Assembly (NCBI GenBank): GCA_947177425.1
Contig: CAMWUN010000002.1
Location: 62,001-126,000, forward strand
DNA from: an uncultured bacterium
GTDB taxonomy: Bacteria; Bacillota; Clostridia; Lachnospirales; Lachnospiraceae
DNA: 64,000 bases
Direction: 5' to 3'
The notes under the pieces are model-generated. The model worked only from the letters and a program-made list of their open reading frames with translations. It ran no database searches and was not told the origin of the DNA. This document shows positions 3,326 through 20,423 of the stretch, one piece after another (position 1 is the stretch's first letter; every line of letters starts with the position of its first letter). Made by a program: the position numbers and the translations under genes.

Positions 3326-4252
3326 CTAACAGGAAAAATAAGCGGCTGCTTCCAGAATTCCCTCTGCATTCAGCTTAAATTTCTCCTGTAATTCCGCACG
3401 TTTCCCTGAACAGCCAAACTCGTCCTGTAATCCTACCCTGCGGAGTTTTGCCGTCCCTGATTCCGCCAGAATCTCAGCAACTGCGCTTCCCAGCCCTCCT
3501 ATAACATTGTGATCCTCCGCAGTAATGATTTTTCCTGTTTTTTCTGCATATCTGCGTACCAGTTGGCTATCAATGGGCTTCACGCTGGCCATATCAATAA
3601 CCGCTGTTGAAATATTTCTTTTCTCAAGTACTTCGGCGGCCTTCAATGCTTCAAAAACCAAATCTCCAATGGCTATAATTGTAATGTCCTGCCCGTCACG
3701 AATCACATTTCCCTTACCAATTTCAAATTTTGCTGCAGCCTTTGTATACACCGGTTCGGAGGAACATCTGCCAAATCGCAGGTAGACAGGCCCGTCCATT
3801 TTCAGTGCTGCTTCTACTGCCAGATACGTACTGTGCTCGTCGCAGGGTACCAGCACAGTCATTCCTGGTATTGTCCTCATTAAAGAAATATCTTCAATGC
3901 ACTGGTGGGATGCTCCGTCTTCACCAATAAGAACGCCCCCGTGAGTAGCGGCGATTTTTACATTCAGTCTTGGATAAGCAACCGCATTTCTTATCTGCTC
4001 ATAAGCCCTTCCCGCTGCAAACATTGCAAAAGTGCTGGCAAATACAGGCTCTCCGGTGGTTGCGATTCCTGCAGCCGTTCCAATCATGTCCCCTTCACTG
4101 ATTCCCATATCAAAAAAACGGTGGGGAAATTTTTGGGCAAAGGCAAGGGTCTGCGTTGCCTTTGCCAGATCTGCATCCAAAACAACAAATTCTTCTGTGC
4201 TGCCAAGGCTTGCCAGTGCCATTCCATACGCTTCTCTTGTTGATAAACTCAT
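3326..4252 (-). CDS. Transketolase, C-terminal subunit (split transketolase)
   Basis: 308 residues covering the pyrimidine-binding and C-terminal domains of transketolase. The catalytic Glu segment GISEGDMIGTAAGIA that activates thiamine diphosphate is present, as are GGVLIGEDGASHQ and the C-terminal GGLGSAVAEI typical of split transketolases. Together with the N-subunit it moves a two-carbon unit between ketose and aldose phosphates in the cytosol. The ATG overlaps the N-subunit stop (ATGA), so the two are translationally coupled. It is the last gene of the operon, and its neighbours Rpe and RpiB make the usual transketolase substrates. A role on an unusual ketose phosphate rather than the housekeeping reaction is possible. 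Confidence 0.93.
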   Translation of the reverse strand: MSLSTREAYGMALASLGSTEEFVVLDADLAKATQTLAFAQKFPHRFFDMGISEGDMIGTAAGIATTGEPVFASTFAMFAAGRAYEQIRNAVAYPRLNVKIAATHGGVLIGEDGASHQCIEDISLMRTIPGMTVLVPCDEHSTYLAVEAALKMDGPVYLRFGRCSSEPVYTKAAAKFEIGKGNVIRDGQDITIIAIGDLVFEALKAAEVLEKRNISTAVIDMASVKPIDSQLVRRYAEKTGKIITAEDHNVIGGLGSAVAEILAESGTAKLRRVGLQDEFGCSGKRAELQEKFKLNAEGILEAAAYFSC

Positions 4253-5076
4253 GCCAGAGCCTCCTTCTCCAATTCCTTTTCTGCCTGTTCATATTGTCCG
4301 TCGTCCGGGGCTGCCCCATGCCATCCGGCTTGATTTTCCATAAAAGAAACGCCTTTGCCTTTTATTGTCTGGCAAATGATTACGGAGGGAACTTCTTTCA
4401 CAGCCTTAGCGTCCAAAACTGCTTCCCTGATTTCCTTCGTGCTATGTCCGTCTATTTCATTTACGTTCCATCCAAAAGCCCTGAATTTTTCACCAATCGG
4501 AGTTACATTCATGACCGCTTCCAGCTCTCCGTCAATCTGAAGATGGTTGTGGTCTACAAAAAGAATCAGATTATCCAGTTTATAGTGGGCCGCAGACATT
4601 GCTGCTTCCCAGATCTGTCCTTCCTGCAGCTCCCCGTCCCCGCAAATGCAATATACGTAATATTTTTTATTATGGTATTTTCCGGCAATTGCCATACCGC
4701 TGGCAACAGACAGGCCCTGTCCTAAAGAACCGGAGGACATATCTACCCCCTTTGTTTTTCTCATGGAAGGATGTCCCTGCAGGTGGCTTCCCACCTGACG
4801 CAGTGAGCACATATCCTCTTTTGGAAAAAATCCTTTAATGGCCAGCGCCGCATAATATGCAGGAGCTGCATGTCCCTTGGAAAGAACCAGACGGTCACGG
4901 TTTTCATCCTCTGGATTCCTGACGGAAACATTCATCTGGTCAAAATATAATACGGAAAGAATCTCTGCGATTGACAAAGAGCCCCCCGGATGTCCGCTGG
5001 CAGCGGCATGGATTCCCTTCAATGCCAGCAGTCTGATTTCTGCCGCCTTTTTCTTTAATTCTTTATCATTACACAT
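4249..5076 (-). CDS. Transketolase, N-terminal subunit (thiamine diphosphate domain)
   Basis: 275 residues from the ATG at 5076; a GTG four codons upstream is less likely because AAAGGTG lies at proper spacing from the ATG. The ThDP/metal motif is clear: GDGELQEGQIWEA followed by ILFVDHNHLQIDG. HGHPGGSLS-like residues (SGHPGGSLSIAEIL) and SKGHAAPAYYAAL near the N-terminus are hallmarks of transketolase. It pairs with the C-subunit encoded immediately downstream with a 4-bp overlap. Split transketolases are common in Firmicute sugar operons and act in the non-oxidative pentose phosphate pathway. Confidence 0.93.
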   Translation of the reverse strand: MCNDKELKKKAAEIRLLALKGIHAAASGHPGGSLSIAEILSVLYFDQMNVSVRNPEDENRDRLVLSKGHAAPAYYAALAIKGFFPKEDMCSLRQVGSHLQGHPSMRKTKGVDMSSGSLGQGLSVASGMAIAGKYHNKKYYVYCICGDGELQEGQIWEAAMSAAHYKLDNLILFVDHNHLQIDGELEAVMNVTPIGEKFRAFGWNVNEIDGHSTKEIREAVLDAKAVKEVPSVIICQTIKGKGVSFMENQAGWHGAAPDDGQYEQAEKELEKEALA

Positions 5077-5109
5077 AGTTTGTTTCACCTTTCTTAAACC
5101 ATCTGCTTA

Positions 5110-5511
5110 TTATTCTCCAATCACAGTCACTACACAGGTGCAGGTTCCTTCGCCGGCAAAACGGGTCAGGAAAACCGAACGGTTTTCACCCAGAACAACA
5201 CAGCCGTCCTCTACGGCCAGATCCTTTGCGCTGCCTGCAATAAAGGATTTCGTATGCGCCGACTCCTCCATTGGATCGTCGGCACAAAGATAGTCAATGC
5301 GGGGAGGCACAAGGCGGGCAAAGTCATTGGCTACATCCTTTTGGATATTGACATCCTTATTGCCCAGCACAATAATTGCGCAATTACAGTAAGGCTGGTA
5401 TATGGAGCACAAACCCTGCCGGATTTTTGACTCTTCTACGCACTTTAGCACAAACCCTGTAATATCTATCATTTCCCCTGGGGAAATAACAAACTCCTTT
5501 TTATGTATCAT
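5110..5511 (-). CDS. YjbQ-family protein, single domain (UPF0047)
   Basis: 133 residues from the ATG preceded by GGAGGTTGCT; an upstream in-frame ATG would start inside the SIS gene without a ribosome site. It fits the YjbQ/UPF0047 fold family, for which thiamine-phosphate synthase activity has been reported in E. coli YjbQ. Visible motifs are VPPRIDY, SAHTKSFIAGS and GCVVLGENRS, matching the family's P..Y, AHxK and GxxxLG segments. The end of the family core, usually EFDGPR, is degenerate here (RFAGEGTCT) and the usual Y-x-H is YLC, so the catalytic site may have changed. The gene overlaps the SIS-A stop by 11 bp and precedes the transketolase pair. Function in this pathway is unknown; co-occurrence suggests an action on the same sugar. 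Confidence 0.8.
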   Translation of the reverse strand: MIHKKEFVISPGEMIDITGFVLKCVEESKIRQGLCSIYQPYCNCAIIVLGNKDVNIQKDVANDFARLVPPRIDYLCADDPMEESAHTKSFIAGSAKDLAVEDGCVVLGENRSVFLTRFAGEGTCTCVVTVIGE

Positions 5512-6616
5512 AGCAACCTCCTTTTTTCTTAAATGGGGCAAAATAAGATACCAGAAGATCAATCGGCAAATGATTAAACCATGCCGTCAGGTACCCATAT
5601 TCCTTCGGAGCTTTGGGAATCTGAAAGCTTTCAACAGGGCTTTCAATACCAAATTCTGCTGCCGTTACATCCCCCACAAATACTACCTTAAAGCCCATGT
5701 GAAAAGCCTCGTCAACAGCAGTTGCAATGCTCCTGCGGCTGTCGGAATCCTCTTCCCCAAAAAACACAACACAGGTTTCTACAGCTTTTTTTATGTATTT
5801 TGCATTATGCCGCCAGTCCACGCTGTTGGTAAAACCTCCAAATATACCTGCAGTGTCTATTGCTTTTGACGCCAGGAATCTTACGGATGCCATATCGATA
5901 CCGTCTCCTACCCCATAGAAATTCTGAATCTCTGCGCCCCAAAGCTTTGCCAGACGTATTGCCTGGACATCAAATGCTTCCATACATGCCTTATAATCAT
6001 TTCCAAGGGAAATCATTGCATCTGCCAGCGTTTTAGTGGTACCCTCCGGATAGTCTCCTTTTGCCTCTGCCATATATGCCGCCAGCAAAGAGGCCGATAC
6101 CAGTACCCCCACATATGCGCTGCAGCCAGGCTTCCCACAGGAAATTTCAGGAAGGCATACCTTTAGAAAATAACCTGCATCCGTCTCCGGCGGTGTGGAC
6201 TGCTCTGTAATGCCAAGGGCCGGAATACCAAGATCCCCCGCGCGCTCAAAAACCTCTTCGGTACGCCGGGAAAATTCTCCGCTGCAGATGGCCACAATCA
6301 ATGTAAGCTCCGCTTCTGCCGGGGTCTCCTGCGCAAGAAATCTGGTATATCTGGAATTTTCAAGAGCTGTATCCACATAGATATTGGTTCCAAGCTTTGT
6401 GAGGTAATGCACATAGCAGGGCTCCAGCGCCATTGCAGCAGAATAGGAATCGCCGCTGCCTGTAAGATATATATGGCGGGATGCTTTCAACACTTCCACA
6501 GGCGCAAATCCTGCTTTGGTAATGCCGGACCAAAACCCCTTTACAATCTTCTCTATGATTCCGGGACAGGCCGCCGCCTGTTCTTTAAGCGCATTGTCAT
6601 ATTGTACACTGTTCAT
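5501..6616 (-). CDS. Double-SIS-domain protein A (sugar isomerase/deglycase-like)
   Basis: About 371 residues starting at the ATG served by AGGAGAG; a TTG two codons upstream is an alternative. The first SIS domain has the phosphosugar loop YLTGSGDSYSAA near residue 50. The second has AGIFGGFTNSVDWRHNAKYI, with the acidic-Trp-x-His pattern at the place where GlmS/FrlB-type enzymes carry ExxxHG. The C-terminus FNHLPIDLLVSYFA resembles the GlmS/FrlB end. The family isomerises or deglycates amino-sugar or ketose phosphates. It is closely related to the gene at 16743-17951. It sits between two YjbQ genes, which is unusual. Substrate unknown; an Amadori-type or ribosylamine-type phosphate is an inference only. 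Confidence 0.8.
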   Translation of the reverse strand: MNSVQYDNALKEQAAACPGIIEKIVKGFWSGITKAGFAPVEVLKASRHIYLTGSGDSYSAAMALEPCYVHYLTKLGTNIYVDTALENSRYTRFLAQETPAEAELTLIVAICSGEFSRRTEEVFERAGDLGIPALGITEQSTPPETDAGYFLKVCLPEISCGKPGCSAYVGVLVSASLLAAYMAEAKGDYPEGTTKTLADAMISLGNDYKACMEAFDVQAIRLAKLWGAEIQNFYGVGDGIDMASVRFLASKAIDTAGIFGGFTNSVDWRHNAKYIKKAVETCVVFFGEEDSDSRRSIATAVDEAFHMGFKVVFVGDVTAAEFGIESPVESFQIPKAPKEYGYLTAWFNHLPIDLLVSYFAPFKKKGGCYDT

Positions 6617-6673
6617 ACTCAAATACTCTCCTTTTTATCGTCGTCAGAGCCAGCACTCCATTCGTACAGAAAT

Positions 6674-7510
6674 TTAAGTCTGCGACTGGATGGAGTGCCC
6701 GGCTTCATCCTTAAAAACGCAAATCCGTACATCCCGGGGACGGGGACCGTCAAACTCTGCATAACACAGACAGGATTCCTCTCCCAGCAGCAGTCCGCCA
6801 TTTTCAAAGGGCACATTAAGCTGTGTGCCGGAAATACAGGTTTTAATATGTCCGGAAGGGTCATAAGCGCTTTCACGATGATTAAAATCCGCCCGCGTGG
6901 TAATCAGCCTGTCAAAATCTTCCACTATGTCCTGCTGCCTTTCGCTGCCTGTGGGACACATGGCAATTCCTGCGGTTGCCGCTACAACCGTAAGGTGGCA
7001 GAAGCCGTTCTTATATCCACTGTTTTTAACTGCCGTACGCACGCAGTCAGTGATATCATGTATTTCATTAAAATAGCTGTCAAACTGAAAGACTTCATAA
7101 TAAAATGGGGCCTCAACCACAGACAGGGTAAGATTTCTGGTTTCAGGGCCGTCAAACTCAAACAACACAAAGCTTTGGGAATGCCCTGCTAAAGGCTGCC
7201 CCTCCTTCACTACAATGCTGTAGGAGCAGGACGTAAAAACCGACCGGGTATGTGCCGCCGCAGCAATTGGAGAGCGCTGATGCAGGTAAGTTACCCGCGG
7301 CGGCACACACCGCCATAATTCATTGACCATGTCATCCATTCCGCCCAAATCCCAGGTGGAAGTAAGCCCAAGCCCCCCGGCATCCTCATCCAGGCTTATT
7401 ACACATATGCCATTTTGCACGCCGCTTTCGGCAATTGCTTCCCGCACCATAGAATCAATCACCACATATCCCTGACGTGATGCTGTTTCAATTGTAAGTT
7501 TTTTAATCAT
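6674..7510 (-). CDS. Tandem YjbQ-domain fusion protein
   Basis: 278 residues made of two YjbQ/UPF0047 domains in tandem (about 1-135 and 136-278). The repeats align by eye: VPPRVTYLHQRSPIAAAAHT and ITTRADFNHRESAYDPSGHI, then GHSQSFVLFEFDGPETRN and EESCLCYAEFDGPRPRDV. The second domain keeps the fuller family signature (GHIKTCISGT, LLLG, EFDGPR). The first has lost the LLxG-type segment (QPLAG). Known YjbQ proteins are single-domain and oligomeric, so this fusion may form an asymmetric assembly with one active half. A strong GGGGAGG ribosome site precedes the ATG. It lies 2 bp after SIS-B and 57 bp before SIS-A. Its biochemical role here is unknown. Confidence 0.78.
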   Translation of the reverse strand: MIKKLTIETASRQGYVVIDSMVREAIAESGVQNGICVISLDEDAGGLGLTSTWDLGGMDDMVNELWRCVPPRVTYLHQRSPIAAAAHTRSVFTSCSYSIVVKEGQPLAGHSQSFVLFEFDGPETRNLTLSVVEAPFYYEVFQFDSYFNEIHDITDCVRTAVKNSGYKNGFCHLTVVAATAGIAMCPTGSERQQDIVEDFDRLITTRADFNHRESAYDPSGHIKTCISGTQLNVPFENGGLLLGEESCLCYAEFDGPRPRDVRICVFKDEAGHSIQSQT

Positions 7511-7512
7511 AC

Positions 7513-8541
7513 TTATTGCCTCCCCCTGCGGAATTCCGCTATGTATTCACAAGCTGTTACAACGGGCAGATGGAAGAACAGTGCACATAAAAAATCATAT
7601 CCCTTTGGGAGTGCAGGCATTTGGCAAAGCTTTACACCTTCATTAAAATCCTTTTCTTCACCGTCTGTGATAATCATCCAGGGCCGTTTTTGACTCTGCG
7701 CAGACATAATCTTCTCCCTGAAGCAGTCATACGACGGCGAAACTTTGCAGGCCACTGCAATCACAGGCGCTTCCATCTGACCGCACCATTCATCTGAATC
7801 ATTCCGTGTACAAAGGCATCCGCCATACCGGGTCAGTAGAAAGGAGGAAAATTCCATCACTGCTTTTGCAGACCCGTCGGCAATGCAGTCAAATGTCTCT
7901 TTGTCATAGGTTTCTCTGGCAAATAACTGTACTTTCCCGTCAATTGCCCCATATACACTGTCAACCGACAATGCGTAATCCTGAATCATCTCCCGGGCAC
8001 GCCGGCAATCTGCCTCTGTATACTGCCCCCTTGCCCTGCCAATACGGTAAGCTACTGCTGTCAGTGCTATAACCGCAGCAGAATAAGCCTCCGCAATATT
8101 GGAAACCTCTCCCAGGGAAAGTACATAATCTGCATCCGACGCGTATTTTGCATGTTCATTCACAGTAACAAGAAGGGAGACGCCTCCCACTTCAGACGTC
8201 ATTCTGATACTGTCCGCCGCATCCTCATCATTTCCATCCAGATCTGTGACTATCACAAGGGGTGTATTTGGTTCTCCAATCCCTACCTCGTGTCTGCATC
8301 CTCCATAATTATATTTGGCCTGGGAAACCAGAAGGGGTCCCCAGAATATATCACTCTCCTGAAACAGCCCCAGGACTGAAGTAACAGCCGCCATGCCTTC
8401 TGAATTTCCTGTAAGAATTACTTTACGCGCATCAAAGCACCTCAAAACAGGCAACGCTGCCTCCAGCTTTTCTGTGAGCCACAGCTCGTCCAGCTTTTTT
8501 TCCAGAAAAGCCGGATAGTTCTCTAACAATTTTTCCACCAT
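7513..8541 (-). CDS. SIS-domain protein B (sugar isomerase-like)
   Basis: About 342 residues from the ATG at 8541, which follows GGGAGG; an upstream in-frame ATG overlaps rpiB and lacks a ribosome site. The first half carries a SIS-like loop VILTGNSEGMAAVTS. The second half has GGCLCTRNDSDEWCG and ends in LCALFFHLPVVTACEY, paralleling the second SIS domain of protein A. It is a paralogue of the shorter protein at 15938-16750 (shared DS-D/E-EWC, KLCQMP/VICQMP and LFFHLP/LFFHIP segments). It may form a heteromer with SIS-A, encoded in the same operon. No catalytic assignment can be made from sequence alone. Confidence 0.75.
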   Translation of the reverse strand: MVEKLLENYPAFLEKKLDELWLTEKLEAALPVLRCFDARKVILTGNSEGMAAVTSVLGLFQESDIFWGPLLVSQAKYNYGGCRHEVGIGEPNTPLVIVTDLDGNDEDAADSIRMTSEVGGVSLLVTVNEHAKYASDADYVLSLGEVSNIAEAYSAAVIALTAVAYRIGRARGQYTEADCRRAREMIQDYALSVDSVYGAIDGKVQLFARETYDKETFDCIADGSAKAVMEFSSFLLTRYGGCLCTRNDSDEWCGQMEAPVIAVACKVSPSYDCFREKIMSAQSQKRPWMIITDGEEKDFNEGVKLCQMPALPKGYDFLCALFFHLPVVTACEYIAEFRRGRQ

Positions 8542-8569
8542 AAGTAAGACGCCTCCCGCCATAGTATTT

Positions 8570-9007
8570 TTATTCATCCAGTTCATTCAACATCCTGACC
8601 CTGGCATCGTGAATTCCATGCTGAAACTCACTGCCCAGATAGGCTTCCACAATCATCCAGGCCAGTTCCGGCCCTGTGGTCCGGGCGCCTATCGCAATTA
8701 TATTTGCATTGTTGTGTTCCTTAGCCATTTTTGCCGAAAAACAATCTGCACACAGAGCTGCTCTGATTCCGGATATTTTGTTTGCGGCGATAGACATACC
8801 GATGCCTGTTCCGCAAATCAGAATTCCGCACACGCAGTCCCCAGAGATTACGGCTTTTGCTACTTTTCCGGCATATACTGGATAATCTACCATGTCGGAG
8901 GAATGGCATCCCAAATCATCTACCCTATGTCCCAGAGACGTTAAACGCTCCACGATTATTTTTTTTAATTCATAACCTCCGTGGTCACTACCTAATGCAA
9001 TCTTCAT
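8570..9007 (-). CDS. rpiB: Ribose 5-phosphate isomerase B
   Basis: 145 residues, the usual RpiB length. Active-site features are present: SDHGGYELK (general His), the catalytic Cys in LICGTGIGMS, and EHNNANIIAIGART with the second His. RpiB interconverts ribose 5-phosphate and ribulose 5-phosphate; some relatives act on allose 6-phosphate. The gene overlaps rpe by 4 bp, so the pair is coupled. It links a ribose phosphate released by the operon to Rpe and transketolase. Confidence 0.93.
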   Translation of the reverse strand: MKIALGSDHGGYELKKIIVERLTSLGHRVDDLGCHSSDMVDYPVYAGKVAKAVISGDCVCGILICGTGIGMSIAANKISGIRAALCADCFSAKMAKEHNNANIIAIGARTTGPELAWMIVEAYLGSEFQHGIHDARVRMLNELDE

Positions 9008-9711
9008 ACCTTCCTCCTGTCTTTATCCGAAATTTGGCCGGCATATAGTCCCTGCAGGTCTTTGCAAACCTTACAAAACTCTTTCGTCCGCTCATAAAGA
9101 GGCGCCCGGCCGTCATAGTTTGCAAAAGCGCCTGCTACCAGCAAATCCGCGCCTCGCGCAATCAGTTCACCAGCATTCTCAAAGCTTACGCCTCCGTCTG
9201 CTTCAATTATAAACTGGCTGCCGCTGGCTTTCCTTGCCATCACAAGCGCTTCCAGCTTTTTCAGAATTTCCGGCTGGAACTGCTGCCCTGAAAATCCGGG
9301 TTTTACAAAAAGCAACAGCACAAAGTCTATTTTGGAAAGAAAGGGTATTGCCGCTTCTGCCGGGTCCCCGGGGGCCAGCGCGATTCCTTTTCTGATGCCA
9401 TGTTCTTCTAAGGCTTCAAGAAATTCATGAACAGAGTCATCCGTATTTAAGTGGGTGCAGGCCGCTTCAACACCATTTTGGGCCATAACCTCTACATATT
9501 TCAAAGGATTAGTCACCATCAGGTGTACATCCATCGGCGTTTCGGATATAGTCCGGATGGCCCTTACAATATCAAAATTCAGACAGAGATTCGGCACAAA
9601 ATGACCGTCCATAATATCAATATGAAACCAGTCGGAACCGGCTCTGTCCAATGCACGGATGTCCTCTTCCAGATGAAGGTAGTCCGCGCACGCAAGGGTT
9701 GTTGTAATCAT
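9004..9711 (-). CDS. rpe: Ribulose-phosphate 3-epimerase
   Basis: 235 residues forming a TIM barrel. Metal and catalytic residues are visible: FHIDIMDGHFVPN (His and Asp), DVHLMV (His), and IEADGGV (second catalytic Asp). The phosphate-binding segment reads VKPGFSGQQF, close to the usual PGFGGQ. It epimerises ribulose 5-phosphate to xylulose 5-phosphate, the donor for the transketolase encoded downstream. The N-terminal strand TTTLACADY departs from the common SPSILSADF, so a paralogue acting on a related ketose phosphate such as allulose 6-phosphate cannot be excluded. Confidence 0.9.
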   Translation of the reverse strand: MITTTLACADYLHLEEDIRALDRAGSDWFHIDIMDGHFVPNLCLNFDIVRAIRTISETPMDVHLMVTNPLKYVEVMAQNGVEAACTHLNTDDSVHEFLEALEEHGIRKGIALAPGDPAEAAIPFLSKIDFVLLLFVKPGFSGQQFQPEILKKLEALVMARKASGSQFIIEADGGVSFENAGELIARGADLLVAGAFANYDGRAPLYERTKEFCKVCKDLQGLYAGQISDKDRRKV

Positions 9712-9726
9712 ATGTTTCCTCTCCTT

Positions 9727-10665
9727 TTATCTGGTGCCTGAAACGAATGAGTATGCCTGTCCTATAGCCGCCGGCGCCTTGTTTCTTCTCTTTGGCGAGC
9801 TGCCGATAATAAGAATAATAAGGCTGGCCGCATAAGGCAGCATCTGGATAAACTGTGACGGTATAGGGAAACTGGGCAGTGTCTGGACATATAGCTGCAG
9901 GGCATCAAAGAAACCGAACAGTATGGAAGCGAAAAACGCTCCCTTTAAAGAGAAGCCCCCCAGTGTCACCGCTCCAAGGGCCAGATAACCGCGGCCGGAA
10001 ATCATCCCCTCCTGGAAAAGATTCATGGAGCCAATAGAAAGCATTGCGCCTCCTAACCCTCCCAGAATACCGCTGATAATAACACCTATATAACGCATAA
10101 GATTTACCCTGATGCCTGCAGTATCCGCCGCCCGGGGATGCTCGCCGCAGGCCTGCATCTGCAGACCAACAGGCGTTTTATACAATACATAATTTAATAG
10201 AATAACAATAACAACTGCCAGATAAACCAGGGGCGAAAAACCGCTCAGGAATTCTCCTACTACCGGAATATTGGCTAGCACCGGCGTCTTTGTAATTGAA
10301 GCTACCTGTGCCGAATATCCCATTGTACCAAATACCGCCAGTAAGCCTACGGAAGCAATGCCAGTAGACAAAAGAACCAGCGCCTGGGAGCTGACAGCCA
10401 TTTTTCCTCCACAGGTAATGGTAACAAAACCATGGATGACAGCCATAAATGCTCCTGCCACACATGCAAACAGCACGCCTGTCCAGGGATTGCCTGTCAG
10501 ATAGGATCCCGTCACGGCAAGAAAGGCCCCCATAGTCATAAATCCTTCCAGCCCCAGATTATTAACCCCCGTTCTCTGTCCGTAACATGCACCAACAGCC
10601 GTCAGCGCTATGGGAGTTCCCAGCCGGATAGTTGCCGTAAAAATATATGAAAGAAAAACCCACAT
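9727..10665 (-). CDS. BMP-type (nucleoside) ABC transporter permease 2
   Basis: 312 residues, hydrophobic throughout with about eight to nine predicted membrane spans. The conserved ERTGVNNLGLEGFM-like stretch near the N-terminus (QRTGVNNLGLEGFM) and ACGEHPRAADTAGI are typical of NupQ/YufQ-family permeases, which work with BMP lipoproteins for nucleosides or related compounds. A ribosome site CGGAGG precedes the ATG. It follows permease 1 by 3 bp and completes the importer ahead of rpe. Confidence 0.92.
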   Translation of the reverse strand: MWVFLSYIFTATIRLGTPIALTAVGACYGQRTGVNNLGLEGFMTMGAFLAVTGSYLTGNPWTGVLFACVAGAFMAVIHGFVTITCGGKMAVSSQALVLLSTGIASVGLLAVFGTMGYSAQVASITKTPVLANIPVVGEFLSGFSPLVYLAVVIVILLNYVLYKTPVGLQMQACGEHPRAADTAGIRVNLMRYIGVIISGILGGLGGAMLSIGSMNLFQEGMISGRGYLALGAVTLGGFSLKGAFFASILFGFFDALQLYVQTLPSFPIPSQFIQMLPYAASLIILIIGSSPKRRNKAPAAIGQAYSFVSGTR

Positions 10666-10668
10666 GTT

Positions 10669-11748
10669 CTATACCTCCGTTTTCATCCGCTTCTGCGCTT
10701 TGATTTTTTTGCCAATATAGGTAATAAAATTCTCAGAGCAGATAAAGATAATCAGCATACCCTGCACAGCCATAACAAACTGCGAAGAAACGCCGGTTTT
10801 TAACTGCATCATGGTTGAGCCGTTCTGCATTCCGGCAAACAGCAGGGATGCAACCAGAATAGCCGCCGGATTTTCTTTGCCCAGCATTGACACTGCAATC
10901 CCCATAACAAGGTAGGTCGGCTGGACGTCCTGCTGCATACGGTATGTTGACCCCATTACCTCCAGCGCCCCGCCCAGACCTGCAAATACGGCGCTTAAAA
11001 GGCCGGCCTGGAACATTCTCTTATTGATGGAAATACCAGCGGACAGAGCCGCATTTCTATTGGCTCCGACTGCACGCATTTCAAATCCCACTTTTGTTTT
11101 AAACATGATAACAGAAGATACTGCAACCAGCAGAATGGCAATAATAATGCTGGAGTTAACGCCGCCCAGGGAATTTAAAATTGTAGGAAGTCTGGCGCTC
11201 TCCTGTATGGTTGGCGTAGCATTGCTCATGGCGTTATATCCTGGAAATTGCATAATCAGCCAGTTGCACAGATAAAGAGCAATATAATTCATCATAATGC
11301 CGCTGAATACAAAGTTCACATTCCTGCTTAACTGGAACCAGGTCGGTATGGCGGCCCAGAGACAGGAGCCGATAACACCTGCCAGCAGCATAAGCGCTAT
11401 CAGAGGAACCGCTGGTAATTTTATGTACACGCCAACCCATGTGGCAAACAGGCTGCCCAGCATAAACTGTCCGGTAAATCCAATGTTAAAAAGACTTGCA
11501 CTGTTGCCTACGGTAAGGGCCAGACCTGCCATCAAAATAGGCGCCATACGGTTTAAGGTTCCCACAATGCTCTTTCCGCTCCCGAAAGCTCCCTTGAACA
11601 ATGCCGAAAATACAGCCGCCGGGCTGGCATCCACCAGTGAAATAAGAATGGATCCGGCAATCATAGCAAGCACAATTGCAATAAGCGAGGTTAAAAAGCT
11701 GTTTAATCCTTCACGCAGCTTTGTTCCATCAGTTTTCTTCACTGTCAT
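10669..11748 (-). CDS. BMP-type (nucleoside) ABC transporter permease 1
   Basis: About 359 residues from the ATG preceded by AGGAGG; a longer upstream start overlaps the ATPase gene further and lacks a ribosome site. The protein is multi-spanning, with FNIGFTGQFMLG and MRAVGANRNAALSAGI matching NupP/YufP-family permeases. It forms the channel with permease 2. The start overlaps the end of the ATPase gene by 20 bp, a sign of translational coupling. Confidence 0.91.
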   Translation of the reverse strand: MTVKKTDGTKLREGLNSFLTSLIAIVLAMIAGSILISLVDASPAAVFSALFKGAFGSGKSIVGTLNRMAPILMAGLALTVGNSASLFNIGFTGQFMLGSLFATWVGVYIKLPAVPLIALMLLAGVIGSCLWAAIPTWFQLSRNVNFVFSGIMMNYIALYLCNWLIMQFPGYNAMSNATPTIQESARLPTILNSLGGVNSSIIIAILLVAVSSVIMFKTKVGFEMRAVGANRNAALSAGISINKRMFQAGLLSAVFAGLGGALEVMGSTYRMQQDVQPTYLVMGIAVSMLGKENPAAILVASLLFAGMQNGSTMMQLKTGVSSQFVMAVQGMLIIFICSENFITYIGKKIKAQKRMKTEV

Positions 11749-13276
11749 GATCCTCCTTTTTTGTGACACCCAGCATATAATTGCCAATTTCACGCTTCGT
11801 CACATTTTTATTTGGAAGGTCCGCGACAATTTTACCGTCGAAAATAACCAGAATCCTGTCGCTTACCTGCAATATCTCATCCAGTTCCAGAGAGAACATC
11901 AATACACCGTTTCCTTCATTACGATGCTCCACCAGCTTATTATGCACATACTCAATAGCTCCCATGTCAAGTCCGCGGGTAGGCTGGACCGTCATCAGCA
12001 TTTTAGGAGAAAAATTGGTTTCCCGTGCAATAACCAGCTTCTGCTGATTTCCTCCTGACAATGTGCCTGCCGGCACCTCCATGGAACTGCACCGGACGTC
12101 AAACCGTTCCTTTAATATTTCCGCATCTTCCGAAATTGCTTTCTCGTTCCGGAATACTTTGTATTTTAAATATTTATCCCGGGCCTGATAGCCGAGAATC
12201 AGATTATCCTTTAAAGGGAAGGACAGCACCAGGCCATCCTTATGCCTGTCCTCAAATACGGTGGCCAGCCCCATGTCTCTGATTTCACCAATCGTATTCT
12301 TCGTAATGTCGCGCCCCATAAATTCTACTTTACCCGAATCCGGCTTTTTCTTGCCGCAAATGATATCTACCAGTTCATCCTGTCCATTGCCGTCGACTCC
12401 GGCAACGCCCACAATTTCCCCGGGAGAGAGCGTAAAGCTTACGCCGTTTAGTTTATTGACACCATTTTCAGCATACGCAAGTCCCTCCACTTCCAGTATC
12501 TTTTCACTGCTCTCTATTACCTTTTTCTCGCCGCCGCCCAGGGTAATCTGATGGCCTACCATGAGTACGGCCAGTTTTTTCTCATCGACTTCATCCACAT
12601 TTTTGGTTGTTATGACTTCGCCTCTCCTGATAATCGTAATTCTGTCAGAAACCTTCATAACTTCTGCCAGTTTATGGCTGATAAAAATAATTGTCTTGCC
12701 CTGCTTCTTCAGGCGAAGCACCATATCGCAGAATTCGTCAATCTCCTGGGGAGTGAGCACTGCAGTCGGCTCATCAAAAATAATAATCTCCGCTTTTCTC
12801 CAAAGAACCTTTAAAATTTCCACTCTCTGCTGCATTGCAACGGAAATATCCATGACCAGTGTATCCGGGTCAATTCGGAGTCCAAAGGATTCCGACAATG
12901 CCATAACCTCTTTTCTGGCCTTTTTGTAATTAATTTTAGCCTTATTCCCGACTTCTGCGCCTAAAATAATGTTTTGAAGCACGGTAAAACTCTGTATCAG
13001 CATAAAATGCTGGTGTACCATACCAATTCCCTGGCTGATGGCGTCTGAAGGCGTAGATATCTTCATCGGTCTGCCCCGCAGAAGAATCTCTCCGGAAGAA
13101 GGCGTATATAAGCCGAAAATGGTATTCATAAGGGTTGACTTGCCCGCTCCGTTCTCTCCTACAATCGCGTGCACTTCTCCTTTTTCAATGTCAAAGCTAA
13201 TATTTCTATTTGCAATTACGCCGTTAGGAAATACCTTACTGACATTTTTCAGTTCAATAATTTTTTCCTTTTCCAA
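11729..13276 (-). CDS. BMP-type (nucleoside) ABC transporter, double ATPase subunit
   Basis: 515 residues with two fused nucleotide-binding domains, the NupO/MglA layout. The first domain has Walker A GENGAGKSTLMNT, a signature-like ISVAMQQRVEI, and Walker B IIFDEPTAVLT. The second has GVDGNGQDELVDII in place of a true Walker A (no Lys), then LSGGNQQKLVIARE. A degenerate second site is normal for this family. The start is TTG (complement of 13274-13276) with AGAGG upstream. A strong hairpin separates it from the lipoprotein gene. Confidence 0.93.
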   Translation of the reverse strand: MEKEKIIELKNVSKVFPNGVIANRNISFDIEKGEVHAIVGENGAGKSTLMNTIFGLYTPSSGEILLRGRPMKISTPSDAISQGIGMVHQHFMLIQSFTVLQNIILGAEVGNKAKINYKKARKEVMALSESFGLRIDPDTLVMDISVAMQQRVEILKVLWRKAEIIIFDEPTAVLTPQEIDEFCDMVLRLKKQGKTIIFISHKLAEVMKVSDRITIIRRGEVITTKNVDEVDEKKLAVLMVGHQITLGGGEKKVIESSEKILEVEGLAYAENGVNKLNGVSFTLSPGEIVGVAGVDGNGQDELVDIICGKKKPDSGKVEFMGRDITKNTIGEIRDMGLATVFEDRHKDGLVLSFPLKDNLILGYQARDKYLKYKVFRNEKAISEDAEILKERFDVRCSSMEVPAGTLSGGNQQKLVIARETNFSPKMLMTVQPTRGLDMGAIEYVHNKLVEHRNEGNGVLMFSLELDEILQVSDRILVIFDGKIVADLPNKNVTKREIGNYMLGVTKKEDHDSEEN

Positions 13277-13302
13277 AATTCGTACCTCTTTATCTTATTA
13301 AG

Positions 13303-13329
13303 CTTCCGGAGGACTCTGACCTCCGGAAG
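13303..13329 (-). other. Intercistronic hairpin between binding-protein and ATPase genes
   Basis: Perfect 10-bp stem CTTCCGGAGG/CCTCCGGAAG with a 7-nt loop, 27 bp after the lipoprotein stop. No T-run follows on the minus strand, so it is not a plain terminator. Such hairpins commonly protect the upstream mRNA end and raise the amount of binding protein relative to the membrane parts. Confidence 0.7.
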
Positions 13330-13356
13330 TATTTGTATTCATGTTACTTAGTCACA

Positions 13357-14451
13357 TTATTCAGCGCGGGAGGTAAAAGCATCAAGCGCTTCCGCCGAGT
13401 CAGGAACTACGATCTCACCGGAAATAATCTTTGCACGGATTTCATCCAGATAATCCAGCACATCCTGGGGGATAGATGCCAGCAATTCATCATTCTTATC
13501 AGTATAGATTAAGTCTACGCCGCCTTCTGCAATACCCCGGACCTGTGACTGTCCATACGGGAAGTTTCCTGCCGCATAAGCGTCAATTAATTCTTCGCAG
13601 ACCTTATTAATCGTCTTAACCTGGGAAGCCGGAATCACGGAAGGCATTAAATGGAACTGGCCGTCAGCCGCACCACAGGCGAGGAATCCCAGCTCATCAG
13701 CCGCCTGGAATACTCCCAGATTAGAGCCTGCCGCGCAGCATGCAAACACATCAATTCCCTGATTATGAAGCATAACAGCAGTCTCATAACCTTTGTTAAC
13801 ATCTGCAAAGCCAACAACAACAGTAGTTGGATCATAGCCTAATTCATACAGCACACCCGCACGGAAGCCTGCGTTGAAGCGGACCATCGTTCCGCTGTCA
13901 CTACCCTGTATCTGCGCTACCTGACCGCTTTCAGACATTCTGGCTGCAAAAATTCCATTTATAAAAGCTGCTTCCTGCTCTTTGTAAGTAGTTACATAAA
14001 GGTTATCCGGAAGGTTTTGGGCATACTCTCCGCCGGAACCGTCCACATCACACCATATGACATCCGGATACTGGGACACAAAATCATGAGAGAATACCTC
14101 CTCCTGTGAAGAGGCAAAGAACACCATGTTTGCACCTTCTTCAATGGCAACTGCAACAGAATCCGCCTGCATGGACAACTCAATCCCCTGAAGAGGCGTA
14201 CATTCATATCCATTCTTTTCACAGCCAGCCTCAATTCCTGCCCATACCACATCATCGAACGCCTGGCTGCCCAGGTTATTGGCAGTAATAAACACCACCT
14301 TAACCGGTTCCCCCGCCTGCTCCTGTGCCGCTTCCTCTCCGGCTGCTTCTGCCGGCGCGGGCGCCGCATCGGGCGTCTTTTTGTTTGAACAGCCCATCAT
14401 AATCCCCATTGCTAAAATCAACGCTAAAAATAAGTTGAATCCTTTTTTCAT
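13357..14451 (-). CDS. BMP-family substrate-binding lipoprotein
   Basis: 364 residues from the ATG after AAGGAGAAGG. A lipoprotein signal peptide ends with MGIMMGC (lipobox Cys near residue 22), followed by an Ala/Glu-rich linker. The mature part begins VKVVFITANNLGSQAFDD, as in the BMP/Med family of periplasmic-binding-like lipoproteins. These bind nucleosides, or in some members riboflavin or other ribosyl compounds. Conserved IQGSDSGTMVRFNAGFRAGV and DVFACCAAGSNLGVF segments fit this. It is the second gene of the operon, just after the nucleosidase-like gene. Confidence 0.92.
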   Translation of the reverse strand: MKKGFNLFLALILAMGIMMGCSNKKTPDAAPAPAEAAGEEAAQEQAGEPVKVVFITANNLGSQAFDDVVWAGIEAGCEKNGYECTPLQGIELSMQADSVAVAIEEGANMVFFASSQEEVFSHDFVSQYPDVIWCDVDGSGGEYAQNLPDNLYVTTYKEQEAAFINGIFAARMSESGQVAQIQGSDSGTMVRFNAGFRAGVLYELGYDPTTVVVGFADVNKGYETAVMLHNQGIDVFACCAAGSNLGVFQAADELGFLACGAADGQFHLMPSVIPASQVKTINKVCEELIDAYAAGNFPYGQSQVRGIAEGGVDLIYTDKNDELLASIPQDVLDYLDEIRAKIISGEIVVPDSAEALDAFTSRAE

Positions 14452-14527
14452 TTTCCTTCTCCTTTTGTTATTTTTCTTTATTTTCATCTCTTCTATACGT
14501 CATTTAACCAGAGATAAAAATATCCTA

Positions 14528-15544
14528 TTAATTATAAGATTTAATTGCAGAAATAAACCAGTTTATCATCCTTTCCCTGTCAACTGTTTCTGCAAAAAGA
14601 ATGTTCATCTCCTCTGGCTGCTTTGCATAAAAGTTCCGCTTGTCAATCAGAGTAAATCCTGTCGTAATTTCTCCCTTACATTCCACCATTGCAAAATATT
14701 TTCTGGCAGTAAACATATCCGGGCAGGCTGCAAAGGCCACCGTTGCCGGGTCATGCAGGCTGACTCTTGCATTTTCTTCTGCTGTCTTTGTGGCGGTAAT
14801 CTGTTCTTCATTACCCTTTGCATTTATGGCTTCCCGCTCTTTTTCTGTAAGATAACCACTTCCGTAATGAGTCAGAATGCTATGGGCAAATTGGGAAATC
14901 ACTCCCTGGTCTTTTCCAATCATTCCAATCTCCTCCGGCGTCAGATAACACTGTCTGGTGACATCCAGAGGAACTGCACAGAATTCAATTTTGCTGTCCA
15001 GAACAATTCTTAAGGCTTCCGGGTCCACCAAAACATTAAAGGTAACAATAGGGGATGGATTGCCGTCATGGTAAGAAGTTCCCATAAAAACAATCTTCTC
15101 TATATACTCCCCGCAGTCCTCATGAGACAGAATCAGCCTGGCAATATTAGTCAATGGAGCCAACGCTATTATAGTTACCTTTTCTTTTTGGGATTTCAGC
15201 TTATTCCAAAGGAATGTAACAGCATCCTCATCCACAAGGGAATCCGTGTAGTTTTCTTCAAATTGAAATCCCCGCAGTCCTTCTACGCCATGAACTGCTG
15301 AAGCCCTGATCAGAGGCCGCTCCAGCGGGCCGTCTGCGCCTGCTGCAACAGGAATGTCATCTCTGCCCAACAGGTGTAACACATTCATTGTATTTTTTGT
15401 GGTGTACTTTAAATCTACATTTCCTGCAACAGTTGTAACGCCAATGATATCAAACTGCGGACAGGCACAGGCCGCCGTCAATGCCAGAGCATCGTCTACG
15501 CCTGTATCTACATCAATAAGAACAGGAAATTTTTTTATGCACAT
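14528..15544 (-). CDS. Nucleoside hydrolase-like protein (IUNH superfamily)
   Basis: 338 residues. The calcium-binding N-terminal motif DVDTGVDDA is intact, and the late LHDPATVAF keeps the catalytic His-Asp pair. The middle signature is altered: canonical GNxTPxAEFN is here GNPSPIVTFN, so the ribose-contacting Glu is replaced by Thr, and the usual MGG is MGT. The family cleaves the N-glycosidic bond of ribonucleosides. The change suggests a ribose or 5'-position that differs from ordinary nucleosides; this is inference. It is the first gene of the operon and follows AGGAGG at 10 nt. Confidence 0.85.
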   Translation of the reverse strand: MCIKKFPVLIDVDTGVDDALALTAACACPQFDIIGVTTVAGNVDLKYTTKNTMNVLHLLGRDDIPVAAGADGPLERPLIRASAVHGVEGLRGFQFEENYTDSLVDEDAVTFLWNKLKSQKEKVTIIALAPLTNIARLILSHEDCGEYIEKIVFMGTSYHDGNPSPIVTFNVLVDPEALRIVLDSKIEFCAVPLDVTRQCYLTPEEIGMIGKDQGVISQFAHSILTHYGSGYLTEKEREAINAKGNEEQITATKTAEENARVSLHDPATVAFAACPDMFTARKYFAMVECKGEITTGFTLIDKRNFYAKQPEEMNILFAETVDRERMINWFISAIKSYN

Positions 15545-15608
15545 GTGTTTTGCACCTCCTTTAAAAACTTTACTTACTTTTATTTTTGTTTTGCTTGCTG
15601 TTATAGAA

Positions 15609-15637
15609 ATTATAGGGCATCTTTAAACAGATGAAAA
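15609..15637 (-). promoter_or_regulatory. Promoter of the leftward nucleoside/SIS operon
   Basis: Minus-strand -10 TATAAT (15609-15614) with -35 TTTTCA (15632-15637) at 17-bp spacing. The predicted start is about 60 bp before the first gene. A GCTTGCTG element at 15592-15599, overlapping or just downstream of the predicted start, matches in inverted form part of the operator at 15648-15662. It may therefore be a further regulator half-site. Confidence 0.65.
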
Positions 15638-15647
15638 CTATTTTTAC

Positions 15648-15662
15648 AGCAAGCGTTTTCAA
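15648..15662 (-). promoter_or_regulatory. cre/LacI-family operator, site 1
   Basis: Minus-strand TTGAAAACGCTTGCT fits the catabolite-responsive/LacI-type consensus WTGNAANCGNWNNCW. It lies 10 bp upstream of the -35 of the leftward operon. It is shared by 13 of 15 positions with site 2. Candidate binders are CcpA or the two LacI proteins encoded at 18.1-20.1 kb. Confidence 0.7.
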
Positions 15663-15830
15663 TAATATTTTTCCATTTTTGTACTGATAAACTATTGTTT
15701 TATGCAGATTAAAGCCATTTACCAAAGGCATAAAGGCTCTTTTCATTTATGTCAGTTTTGTTTATTAAATTATAGTATTGCCCAAAATTCCAGCCAAAAT
15801 CATATATTTTTTAGTGCTTTTAGACAATAT

Positions 15831-15845
15831 TTGAAAACGCTTTCT
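15831..15845 (+). promoter_or_regulatory. cre/LacI-family operator, site 2
   Basis: TTGAAAACGCTTTCT matches the same consensus and site 1, in opposite orientation. It lies about 90 bp before the rightward SIS pair. The centres of the two sites are 183 bp apart, which would allow one looped complex to control both divergent operons. The rest of the 393-bp intergenic region (15545-15937) is AT-rich, with no further gene seen. Confidence 0.7.
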
Positions 15846-15937
15846 CAATTAGTGATAGCCATTTACTTTTACAAATGCTATATTCAAGCTACACGAATTC
15901 AAGCTCGTTTTAACCCTATAAAAGAAAGGAAAATGTT

Positions 15938-16750
15938 ATGAAACAAGCAAGCTTAATGAGTAACTTATCAGAAACAGCCAGGCATTACATTGAACGGTTC
16001 TGGCTAAGGGATCTGGCCGGCAGTCTCATGTCAGACTCCCAAAAGGAAATTCCTATTACCAGAAATTATGCTGATACGGCAGATTTGCTGGCAGACTACG
16101 GTATAACACTGGAAGCCTCCGAAAACCTTTTAGGAGAAACTAATTATTTTGCGGCTCAGATTGCGTCAATGGCAATTTACTGTTCCCGCCAGGTACTTGT
16201 AAACAAAATGTCCGCTGACAGATTTCATTCCATTGGAAAAGAAATCTGCAGCTACGCCGAAGCGCTGGAGGCAATGATCCCAAGCCTTCTGGTCAAAACC
16301 GATGCATTTGCAAAACAAAATTATCAGAACTGGCAGTTGGATCTGATAGCTGACGGAAGCCTCGAAATCGTATCAGAATACCTGCGGGCTCTGTATTGCA
16401 AAGAAGGCGGATTTCTATGTTCCGTCAGCGACAGCGAGGAATGGTGCCATGTAAACTTTTGGTGCCTGAAGCGGACAAATATCGCCACTATCTGCGCCTG
16501 TCCGGAAAACTCCCCGGCATTTTCCAGATTTGCAGAAACCATGTCAACCGTTCACCGGCTGGAGTGCCCATATCTGATTATTACCGATGCATCTGCGGAT
16601 GCGTTTTATCCGGGTACAGTCATTTGCCAGATGCCTCCCATAAAAAAAGAAAACTGGTTTCTGTCTCCGCTTTTCTTCCACATTCCGGCTGTTGCCGCAT
16701 TAAATACAATTAAAAAGCTTCGTCTTGAACAGGAGGTTGACCATGAATAA
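15938..16750 (+). CDS. Truncated SIS-B paralogue (second SIS domain only)
   Basis: 270 residues, ATG preceded by GAAAGGA. From about residue 75 on it aligns by eye with the C-terminal two-thirds of SIS-B (7513-8541): GGFLCSVSDSEEWCH, VICQMPPIKKENWF and LFFHIPAVAAL have counterparts there. The N-terminal phosphosugar loop (TGxSEG) of SIS-B is missing, and the first 75 residues show only a remnant. The frame is open and the ribosome site good, so it is probably expressed rather than a pseudogene, perhaps as a partner or regulator. It overlaps the next gene by 8 bp. Confidence 0.72.
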   Translation: MKQASLMSNLSETARHYIERFWLRDLAGSLMSDSQKEIPITRNYADTADLLADYGITLEASENLLGETNYFAAQIASMAIYCSRQVLVNKMSADRFHSIGKEICSYAEALEAMIPSLLVKTDAFAKQNYQNWQLDLIADGSLEIVSEYLRALYCKEGGFLCSVSDSEEWCHVNFWCLKRTNIATICACPENSPAFSRFAETMSTVHRLECPYLIITDASADAFYPGTVICQMPPIKKENWFLSPLFFHIPAVAALNTIKKLRLEQEVDHE

Positions 16751-17951
16751 ACTTGATTATAATGGCATACTACGCAAACAGGTTTTAAACTATTGTGATG
16801 ATGTTTCTGTTTTGATTGATGGTTTCAGGAAAGGAATTACGGAACCGCGTTTTCTGCCCAATACTGTTTTAAGCAGCATTAAAAGAGTTCTTATTACCGG
16901 CAGTGGCGACTGCTGGGGCGCCTCCCTGGTTTTACAGTCTGTTTTTGACGATTTTCTCGGGGCCGGCGGTATAAGCTGTGAAGCATATACTCCTATGGAA
17001 CTTTCCCGTTTTACGGAGCTTACGCCCGATGACAACACCACCCTTATTATTGTTTTAAGTGTATGGGGATTTCCTGCCAGGCTGGTGGAAATTCTTAAGC
17101 GCGCCGCCAAATACCACATTCCAAGTATTGCCATTACGGAAAAAGATAATTCTCCGGTAGGACTTGCGGCAGACTACGCTTTGAACGTGCATAACAGCAG
17201 CATTGCGCTGGAAAGTAAGTCTGGCTGCTGTACCTATCTGGGGATGCTGATATCTGCCTCCCTCTTTGCTGCCCATATATCCGAAGTAAAAGGCATCAGG
17301 CCCCAAGGTTCCATAAATGCCCTGGCAGAATCATTAACTGCTTATGCCGAAAAAATAAGTAAGGAAATAGAACGGATCGATGATCAGATATTTGAGATTG
17401 CAAAGTGCTGGAAAGATACTGTAGAGGGCGTTATCGCCGTTGGAGATGACACAGATTATGCATCTGCATTGTTTTTCCCCGCCAAGCTGATTGAATCCGC
17501 TGGTATTTTCGGAGGATTTACAGACAGCCGGGAGTGGCTAAGAAGCCAGCAGTACATTGGCAGGGCTGACAGAACTGGCGCAGTGGTTTATGTGCAGCAG
17601 GCATCCCCCTCAAAGGAACATCTGGAAAAGGCAATTGAAGCAGCCGCAAAACGGCTATTTCCCACGCTGGTAATTTCCGATTACCCCTGTCCTGTAAAGA
17701 ATGAATACCCTACTGTCAGTACAGTTGTTCTGCCTGCTGCTCCTGGAGGGCAGAACTATATCGGTTCCTTCTTTAATCACCTGCCTGCCGACCTTCTTGC
17801 TTCTTACTTATGCGAATTTTGGGGCGGAAGCTATTTCCGTTCCGCCGTTATAGAAGATACGGAATACGGTGTCAACCACAAGGAAGGGACTACCTTATGG
17901 TCAAAACCAGGCATCAATACCCTGCAGAGCAGCCAACATGTTTTAGTATAA
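16743..17951 (+). CDS. Double-SIS-domain protein A', paralogue of SIS-A
   Basis: 402 residues from the ATG at 16743, which follows AGGAGG by 6 nt; an earlier in-frame ATG lacks this. Domain 1 has LITGSGDCWGASL; domain 2 has AGIFGGFTDSREWLRS; the end is FFNHLPADLLASYL, then a 35-residue tail not found in SIS-A. Shared segments with SIS-A (5501-6616) show a duplication of the A/B pair. The Asp/Glu-Trp pair is kept but the His of DWRHN in SIS-A is Arg here (EWLRS). Enzyme substrate unknown. Confidence 0.78.
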   Translation: MNKLDYNGILRKQVLNYCDDVSVLIDGFRKGITEPRFLPNTVLSSIKRVLITGSGDCWGASLVLQSVFDDFLGAGGISCEAYTPMELSRFTELTPDDNTTLIIVLSVWGFPARLVEILKRAAKYHIPSIAITEKDNSPVGLAADYALNVHNSSIALESKSGCCTYLGMLISASLFAAHISEVKGIRPQGSINALAESLTAYAEKISKEIERIDDQIFEIAKCWKDTVEGVIAVGDDTDYASALFFPAKLIESAGIFGGFTDSREWLRSQQYIGRADRTGAVVYVQQASPSKEHLEKAIEAAAKRLFPTLVISDYPCPVKNEYPTVSTVVLPAAPGGQNYIGSFFNHLPADLLASYLCEFWGGSYFRSAVIEDTEYGVNHKEGTTLWSKPGINTLQSSQHVLV

Positions 17952-18063: not shown

Positions 18064-18122
18064 AAAAATCTGAAAGCAGCCGGTGTATTTTATTTATTGT
18101 CAGGCTGTTTTCAGATTTTTTT
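18064..18122. terminator. Bidirectional terminator between SIS-A' and LacI genes
   Basis: An 18-bp stem with a single G-T pair, AAAAATCTGAAAGCAGCC against GGCTGTTTTCAGATTTTT, and a 21-nt loop. T-runs occur at the 3' end on both strands. It can end the rightward SIS transcript and the leftward lacI transcript; its right arm overlaps the last codons of the lacI gene. Confidence 0.88.
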
Positions 18123-20137: not shown

Positions 20138-20313
20138 AACAATACCTCTTATGCTATATTCAGTATAACACATGAAACCGCTTTATAACAGTATCTTTTA
20201 CCGTCGCTTAATCAGGGATTTCCAGGTACAATAAAGTCATCGCCCTGCAGCGGCGGTTCAGGGAATGATGCGCATTCTCCCTCAATCATTTTTGCTGCTG
20301 CAATTTTTTGTAA

Positions 20314-20343: not shown

Positions 20344-20351
20344 TTCATTCG

Positions 20352-20423
20352 CTGGGCTACAAGGATTCGAACCTTGAAATGACGGAGTCAGAGTCCGTTG
20401 CCTTACCGTTTGGCGATAGCCCA
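20352..20423 (-). tRNA. tRNA-Gln (anticodon CUG)
   Basis: A 72-nt cloverleaf on the minus strand. The acceptor arms are TGGGCTA and TAGCCCA; the anticodon stem ACGGA/TCCGT encloses CTCTGAC with anticodon CTG; the T-arm has GGTTCGAATCC. The 3' CCA is not encoded. It has its own promoter and terminator, so it is a single-gene transcript. Confidence 0.95.

Follow-up and report, generated by a model that had tools for sequence, protein, structure and literature searches.

A conserved pair of SIS and YjbQ genes in a BMP-importer operon of an uncultured Lachnospiraceae bacterium

Why should an operon with a nucleoside hydrolase, a BMP-type ATP-binding cassette (ABC) importer and enzymes of pentose-phosphate metabolism also carry several genes for SIS proteins and for YjbQ (UPF0047) proteins, the latter a family for which, to our knowledge, no physiological reaction is known? 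The question is raised by a stretch of 64,000 nucleotides (here called the window) from an uncultured bacterium of the Lachnospiraceae, namely positions 62,001 to 126,000 of the forward strand of contig CAMWUN010000002.1 in assembly GCA_947177425.1. A leftward unit runs from the start of the nucleoside hydrolase gene at 15544 to the end of a split transketolase gene at 3326, in the order nucleoside hydrolase, BMP receptor, ATPase, two permeases, Rpe-like epimerase, RpiB, SIS-B, tandem YjbQ, SIS-A, YjbQ1 and split transketolase; SIS-B2 and then SIS-A2 are read to the right, and beyond them lie two LacI-type genes on the opposite strand. The genes named in an earlier note on this DNA are present as open reading frames where it had placed them, and its domain labels other than SIS are upheld by Pfam and NCBIfam scans of 19 window proteins. 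The conserved unit among relatives is the SIS-YjbQ pair; the BMP importer and the pentose-phosphate genes are its variable surroundings.

The pairing emerges when GTDB genomes are scanned for relatives of the tandem YjbQ protein; of the 191 found we kept the best 80, a sample biased by its construction towards kin of that query. Of the 30 best loci, 29 (all but L085) have a SIS gene directly 5' of the YjbQ gene and on its strand, and a SIS gene of the same class holds that place in none of the 50 remaining loci, L106 having a FrlB-type SIS gene on the opposite strand. The 29 loci, which come from Bacillota, Chloroflexota and Spirochaetota and have varied surroundings, comprise 14 of a tandem class and 15 with one SIS and one YjbQ gene (the single type). 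The tandem order SIS-B, YjbQ alpha, YjbQ beta, SIS-A, YjbQ gamma is common to the window, the 14 loci L060 to L073, and L017; in L071 and L073 alpha and beta are encoded separately. The window belongs to this derived class, with its three paralogous YjbQ domains and paired SIS-A and SIS-B chains. In the L062 record (Hungatella hathewayi WAL-18680) the first SIS gene, SIS-B, is frameshifted and occupies two frames (8673-9982).

Neighbouring genes were counted by tblastn with reference proteins of our own; as the stretches searched span no more than 20.8 kb and some are far shorter, the counts are lower bounds. An importer of any kind accompanies 22 of the 29 pairs (11/14 tandem, 11/15 single), as does a PfkB gene (12/14 and 10/15); a BtpA or AP_endonuc_2 gene is found at 20 (12/14 and 8/15), and a gene for a nucleoside hydrolase, ADP-ribosylglycohydrolase, phosphorylase or deoxyribosyltransferase at 15 (3/14 and 12/15). 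That SIS and YjbQ go together, as the earlier note had supposed, is thus borne out, mostly beside an importer and at about half of the loci beside nucleoside-type genes; the literature searched likewise yielded no described pathway with this pair. Two further suppositions find no support. The pair is not tied to a BMP importer, the receptor of which occurs in 9/14 tandem and 0/15 single-type loci, the figures for a sugar-type permease being 0/14 and 11/15 (this type being defined by BPD_transp_1/SBP_bac_1 and by sub-cut-off matches to the GlcT/GlcU, UgpA/UgpE and MalF/MalG models). Nor is a conserved neighbourhood of SIS, YjbQ, BMP importer and split transketolase borne out: tblastn found transketolase, RpiB and Rpe in none of the 29 related stretches; on the sampled loci, the complete gene set is peculiar to the window. 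The 36 YjbQ loci outside the SIS group and the fructoselysine-type (frl) group have an importer once, PfkB twice, a nucleoside-type gene once and BtpA/AP_endonuc_2 once, and the 15 frl-group loci have four, six, zero and three, respectively. One cluster recurs in L082, L083 (Lactonifactor longoviformis), L084, L087 and L089. It combines one or more ADP-ribosylglycohydrolase-like genes with genes for PfkB, a phosphorylase, SIS, YjbQ, a nucleoside hydrolase and a nucleoside deoxyribosyltransferase, and four of these loci also have a sugar-type ABC importer (the L084 stretch ends early).

Close to home the system is rare. A full-length tandem YjbQ is present in 4 of 397 genomes of the window's family (G000, G412, G723 and G549), and the three UPF0047 domain matches of the window's genome all lie within the operon; the YjbQ family itself is widespread, with members in 10 of the 14 well-known genomes that served as controls. 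A search with SIS-A in 98 genomes, among them its own and 36 of the same genus, matched seven, exceeding 100 bits in G000 and G080 alone; one of the matches is a single-type SIS-YjbQ locus (L020). Five of the weaker matches fall in frames of 655-662 amino acids; SIS of this family in frames of 640-662 amino acids is seen in G009 and G008, and frames of similar length in G003, G013 and G035. Those of G009 (L019:10122-12044) and G008 (L021:10267-12189) are HAD-like-SIS fusions, the former being Hydrolase_3 (HAD) plus SIS by domain scan and lying beside an ADP-ribosylglycohydrolase gene.

Of the four SIS proteins of the window, a single-sequence Pfam search matched only SIS-A2 (as 16725-17951), below the cut-off (23.3 vs 25 bits). 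A profile built from 15 family members, the window's four included, matches the isomerase domain of human GFAT with an E value of 7e-23, which shows the SIS label to be correct. SIS-A (5501..6622, minus strand), SIS-B (7513..8586, minus) and SIS-A2 (16743..17951, plus) align along almost the full profile; SIS-B2 (15938..16750, plus) is without positions 44-127, much of the first SIS subdomain. The family shares with GlmS, GFAT and related double-SIS proteins both this profile similarity and three active-site positions, which we mapped onto the GlmS of the same genome as Lys485, Glu488 and His504. In published work, Lys485 and Glu488 are counted among the key residues of the catalytic site (PMC7948480), Glu488 and His504 are singled out (PMC9272926), and each isomerase site of GFAT-1 is described as made from Lys558 of one monomer and His577 of the other (PMC7000685). 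Equivalents of all three are present in 67 of 67 SIS rows from 31 loci, the window and L060 excluded. The proteins studied here differ from GlmS and GFAT in being without a glutaminase domain and duplicated into A and B chains, and in the window the residues are divided between chains: SIS-A2 retains Lys and Glu with Arg for His, and in the shortened SIS-B2 only His survives. L060 is split likewise, its SIS-A keeping Lys and Glu, its SIS-B keeping His. Such a division is the pattern expected of one composite site, as far as residues can tell. In the SIS tree SIS-B groups with SIS-B2 (SIS3; support 96) and SIS-A with SIS-A2 (SIS4; support 85), so the pair was seemingly duplicated as a pair; the window proteins cluster with those of L060 (support 100 for A, 99 for B), and A and B as whole clades are poorly supported (39 and 43).

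A comparable division of labour is suggested by the YjbQ domains. The tandem protein (6674..7510, minus) has two UPF0047 stretches, the alpha domain in its N half and the beta domain in its C half, both of which give YjbQ folds in a predicted structure model; YjbQ1 (5110..5511, minus) is of gamma type. The two proteins score 142 and 62 bits, respectively, for a Pfam cut-off of 27. Across 16 loci alpha, beta and gamma each form one clade, with Shimodaira-Hasegawa-like approximate likelihood ratio test (SH-aLRT) values of 99, 99 and 97. Three conserved histidines, which we take to be the common YjbQ site, are complete in 14/16 beta, 4/16 alpha and 0/16 gamma domains and in 66 of 67 other rows. 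The class thus departs from the UPF0047/YjbQ family (TIGR00149): each locus has three paralogous domains, of which two mostly do not keep the full set of three histidines, and the window's domains in addition are without the first His.

YjbQ meets SIS enzymes in a second kind of catabolic locus. Fourteen of the 80 loci have genes resembling two or more of FrlB, FrlC and FrlD, and in them an Amidohydro_2-like gene directly precedes YjbQ, the Pfam domain being confirmed in five; the YjbQ proteins of the frl group form one branch (SH-aLRT 90). This arrangement is seen in the fructoselysine-type operons of L095, L099, L106, L108, L109, L117, L129 and L138, and FrlB, FrlC and FrlD of L099 (Caproiciproducens galactitolivorans) score above their equivalog cut-offs and FrlA below. 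With frl/fra fructosamine operons (FrlB/FraB, FrlC, FrlD) the relatives of the window share an importer, a PfkB-type kinase, a double-SIS enzyme and a TIM-barrel epimerase. They differ in that their SIS proteins are of the GlmS Lys-Glu-His kind, and the single-type loci are often linked to nucleoside-type hydrolases; the window differs further by having no kinase, two SIS pairs and three YjbQ domains. Against the NCBIfam models, which include the FrlB equivalog NF008481, SIS-A, SIS-B and SIS-B2 gave no match at E 0.001, and SIS-A2 gave only GlmS models, far below the cut-off.

The importer is a full BMP/PnrA set on the minus strand: a lipoprotein receptor (13357..14487, Bmp 116 bits), a double ATPase (11729..13276, two ABC_tran stretches, 168 bits) and two permeases (9727..10665 and 10669..11793, BPD_transp_2 110 and 98 bits). 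It shares the four-gene architecture and Pfam families of BMP/PnrA nucleoside importers, and among solved structures the receptor is closest in sequence to Lbp, BmpA, BmpD and TmpC/PnrA. One motif, presumably a ligand contact, sets the receptor apart: Lbp 7x0r and all 12 relative rows (11 distinct ones, as L052 duplicates L067) carry G[VT]DxDQ where the window has GAADGQ, and because this motif is altered the ligand may differ from that of the relatives. Upstream, the IU-type nucleoside hydrolase (14528..15544, minus) exceeds the cut-off of IU_nuc_hydro (PF01156) with 252 bits and has DVDTGVDD and HDP, which we take to be the motifs of that family. Downstream, and also on the minus strand, follow the Rpe-like epimerase (9004..9711; PF00834 185 bits, below the TIGR01163 rpe equivalog cut-off and above that of the subfamily NF004076), RpiB (8570..9007; TIGR01120 175 bits, cut-off 139) and, beyond the SIS and YjbQ genes, the two halves of the transketolase, TktN (4249..5088; Transketolase_N 217 bits) and TktC (3326..4252; Transket_pyr 144 bits, Transketolase_C 117 bits). 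Elsewhere the genome has two further Rpe-family members and one further RpiB-family gene, and its four Transketolase_N matches are all in short frames (274-309 amino acids); with these copies at hand, the pentose-phosphate enzymes of the operon look like extra copies.

The leftward unit and the SIS-B2/SIS-A2 unit diverge from a 393-bp control region (15545..15937) in which two exact copies of the 12-mer TTGAAAACGCTT stand inverted, within 15648-15662 (minus) and 15831-15845 (plus). There are six exact copies in the 4.19-Mb genome and none of the reversed control pattern; a longer form of the motif, with up to three mismatches, occurs 12 times in the window against a shuffle mean of 7.5, which is not above chance, so the exact pair alone counts. 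These inverted copies, a candidate operator-like pair for a LacI or CcpA-like protein, argue that both units form one regulon. The two LacI-type regulators on the minus strand, at 18111..19133 (best NCBIfam match RbsR, below cut-off) and 19130..20173 (LacI-type by family scan), also seem to be part of the unit; L060 has a comparable LacI pair next to its own SIS and YjbQ genes (38% and 28% identity). Just past them lies a tRNA-Gln (CTG) gene at 20351-20423, a possible border, and an Rfam scan of the window at gathering thresholds gave nothing besides one tRNA. Two starts were revised, YjbQ1 from 5562 to the ATG at 5511 and SIS-A2 from 16725 to the ATG at 16743; each is probably the better start and is just preceded by an AGGAGG-type site.

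Which pathway would such an operon encode? At about even confidence, we propose that this regulated operon serves the catabolism of an imported nucleoside-like (N-ribosyl) compound and that its SIS-YjbQ step is heteromeric. The compound would be taken up and its N-glycosidic bond cut, and the sugar would be phosphorylated by a kinase encoded elsewhere. SIS, with YjbQ as partner, would then isomerise the open-chain phosphosugar or deaminate or deglycate it, and the pentose phosphate thus formed would enter central metabolism through RpiB, Rpe and transketolase. The SIS enzyme may be a heterodimer of A and B chains that share one composite active site, A2 supplying Lys and Glu and B2 supplying His; a YjbQ homotrimer may have been replaced by the three domains of the window (alpha and beta fused, gamma separate). 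Of the earlier note's pathway, in which a ribosyl conjugate is imported and turned into a pentose phosphate, the conserved pair and its importer linkage survive; the tie to a BMP importer and the conservation of transketolase, RpiB and Rpe do not.

Several observations weigh against this proposal. The pentose-phosphate enzymes were found in none of the related stretches, as noted above, and just three of the 14 tandem loci have a nucleoside hydrolase. There is no sugar kinase, FrlD-type or other, among the 19 window proteins scanned, and all seven PfkB matches in this genome lie outside the window. With the motif altered in the receptor, even "nucleoside" is uncertain as a name for the ligand. 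No YjbQ gene occurs in the 20 kb around the family SIS of L019 and L021. Compared with the arrangement in GFAT, the leftward SIS pair falls short of a full Lys/Glu/His set, SIS-A having Lys, Asp and His and SIS-B Leu, Arg and a gap, and the composite-site pattern is confined to one lineage, that of the window and L060. None of the window's YjbQ sites is complete either (alpha E/H/H, beta A/H/H, gamma Y/C/H, the first His missing from all). The homotrimeric state of YjbQ is presumed; the heteromers are read from residues and trees, and the structure model covers the tandem YjbQ monomer only. The trees are quick-search trees, that of YjbQ from few columns, with long end branches in several gamma rows and in the SIS rows of the window and L060, and they place the window duplication after the split from L060 for A and before it for B (85 each).

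Some of these points favour ordinary nucleoside or ribose salvage, for which importer, hydrolase, RpiB, Rpe and transketolase would suffice and SIS and YjbQ would be degenerate, non-catalytic remnants or sugar-phosphate-sensing partners. Catalytic residues are indeed lost in SIS-B, SIS-B2, SIS-A2 and each of the window's YjbQ domains, Asp replaces Glu in SIS-A, and much of the first subdomain is gone from SIS-B2. Simple decay, however, agrees poorly with losses that are complementary between A2 and B2 and common to L060, with Arg, Arg and Lys in place of Glu488 in the three B-type proteins, with open, partly overlapping frames whose codon-position G+C resembles that of neighbouring genes, and with intact catalytic sets in 67 relatives, and we find this explanation unlikely. 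In another reading the operon would degrade a nucleoside with an unusual sugar, the SIS pair being an aldose/ketose isomerase of its phosphosugar and the Rpe-like protein and RpiB acting on the same non-ribose sugar. The GlmS-type Lys/Glu/His set of the family, the Rpe-like protein's score below the rpe equivalog cut-off, the differing TIM-barrel enzymes that adjoin the pair in relatives and the altered BMP motif all suit it; RpiB, however, exceeds its equivalog cut-off and nothing positive speaks for any particular sugar, which leaves this reading, too, on the improbable side.

Degradation of a glycated amine of the ribulosamine type, as in Amadori (ketosamine) catabolism, would make SIS a FrlB-like deglycase that releases ribose-5-phosphate and YjbQ an accessory. 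The separate YjbQ branch that lies mostly in fructoselysine-type operons, L099 among them, speaks for it, and RpiB, Rpe and transketolase suit a pentose-phosphate product. Against it, Lys485 is missing in five FrlB-type proteins (one above the FrlB equivalog cut-off, four with FrlB as best NCBIfam match, far below it), which keep Glu and His; its presence in all 67 SIS-YjbQ rows points to an active site of the GlmS isomerase kind. The window, moreover, has no FrlD-like kinase, and we judge this explanation quite unlikely.

Returning to the proposed N-ribosyl pathway and its SIS-YjbQ step, we would go further only tentatively, with rather less than even confidence: SIS-YjbQ may be an unrecognised two-protein step for ribosyl-type phosphosugars in three phyla, of which one branch has taken both partners from homo- to obligate hetero-oligomers with a single working site each. 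The window would then be an extreme stage, with one SIS chain holding Lys and Glu and the shortened chain only His. The two contexts in which SIS and YjbQ meet are the best lead to YjbQ chemistry, co-occurrence not being mechanism. The tight pairing with a SIS phosphosugar enzyme, together with the second tie to SIS-containing fructoselysine operons, makes YjbQ function directly testable. The tandem class, finally, is a natural example of a homodimer and a presumed homotrimer, encoded in one operon, that have both seemingly turned into hetero-oligomers, with active-site residues shared out between chains.

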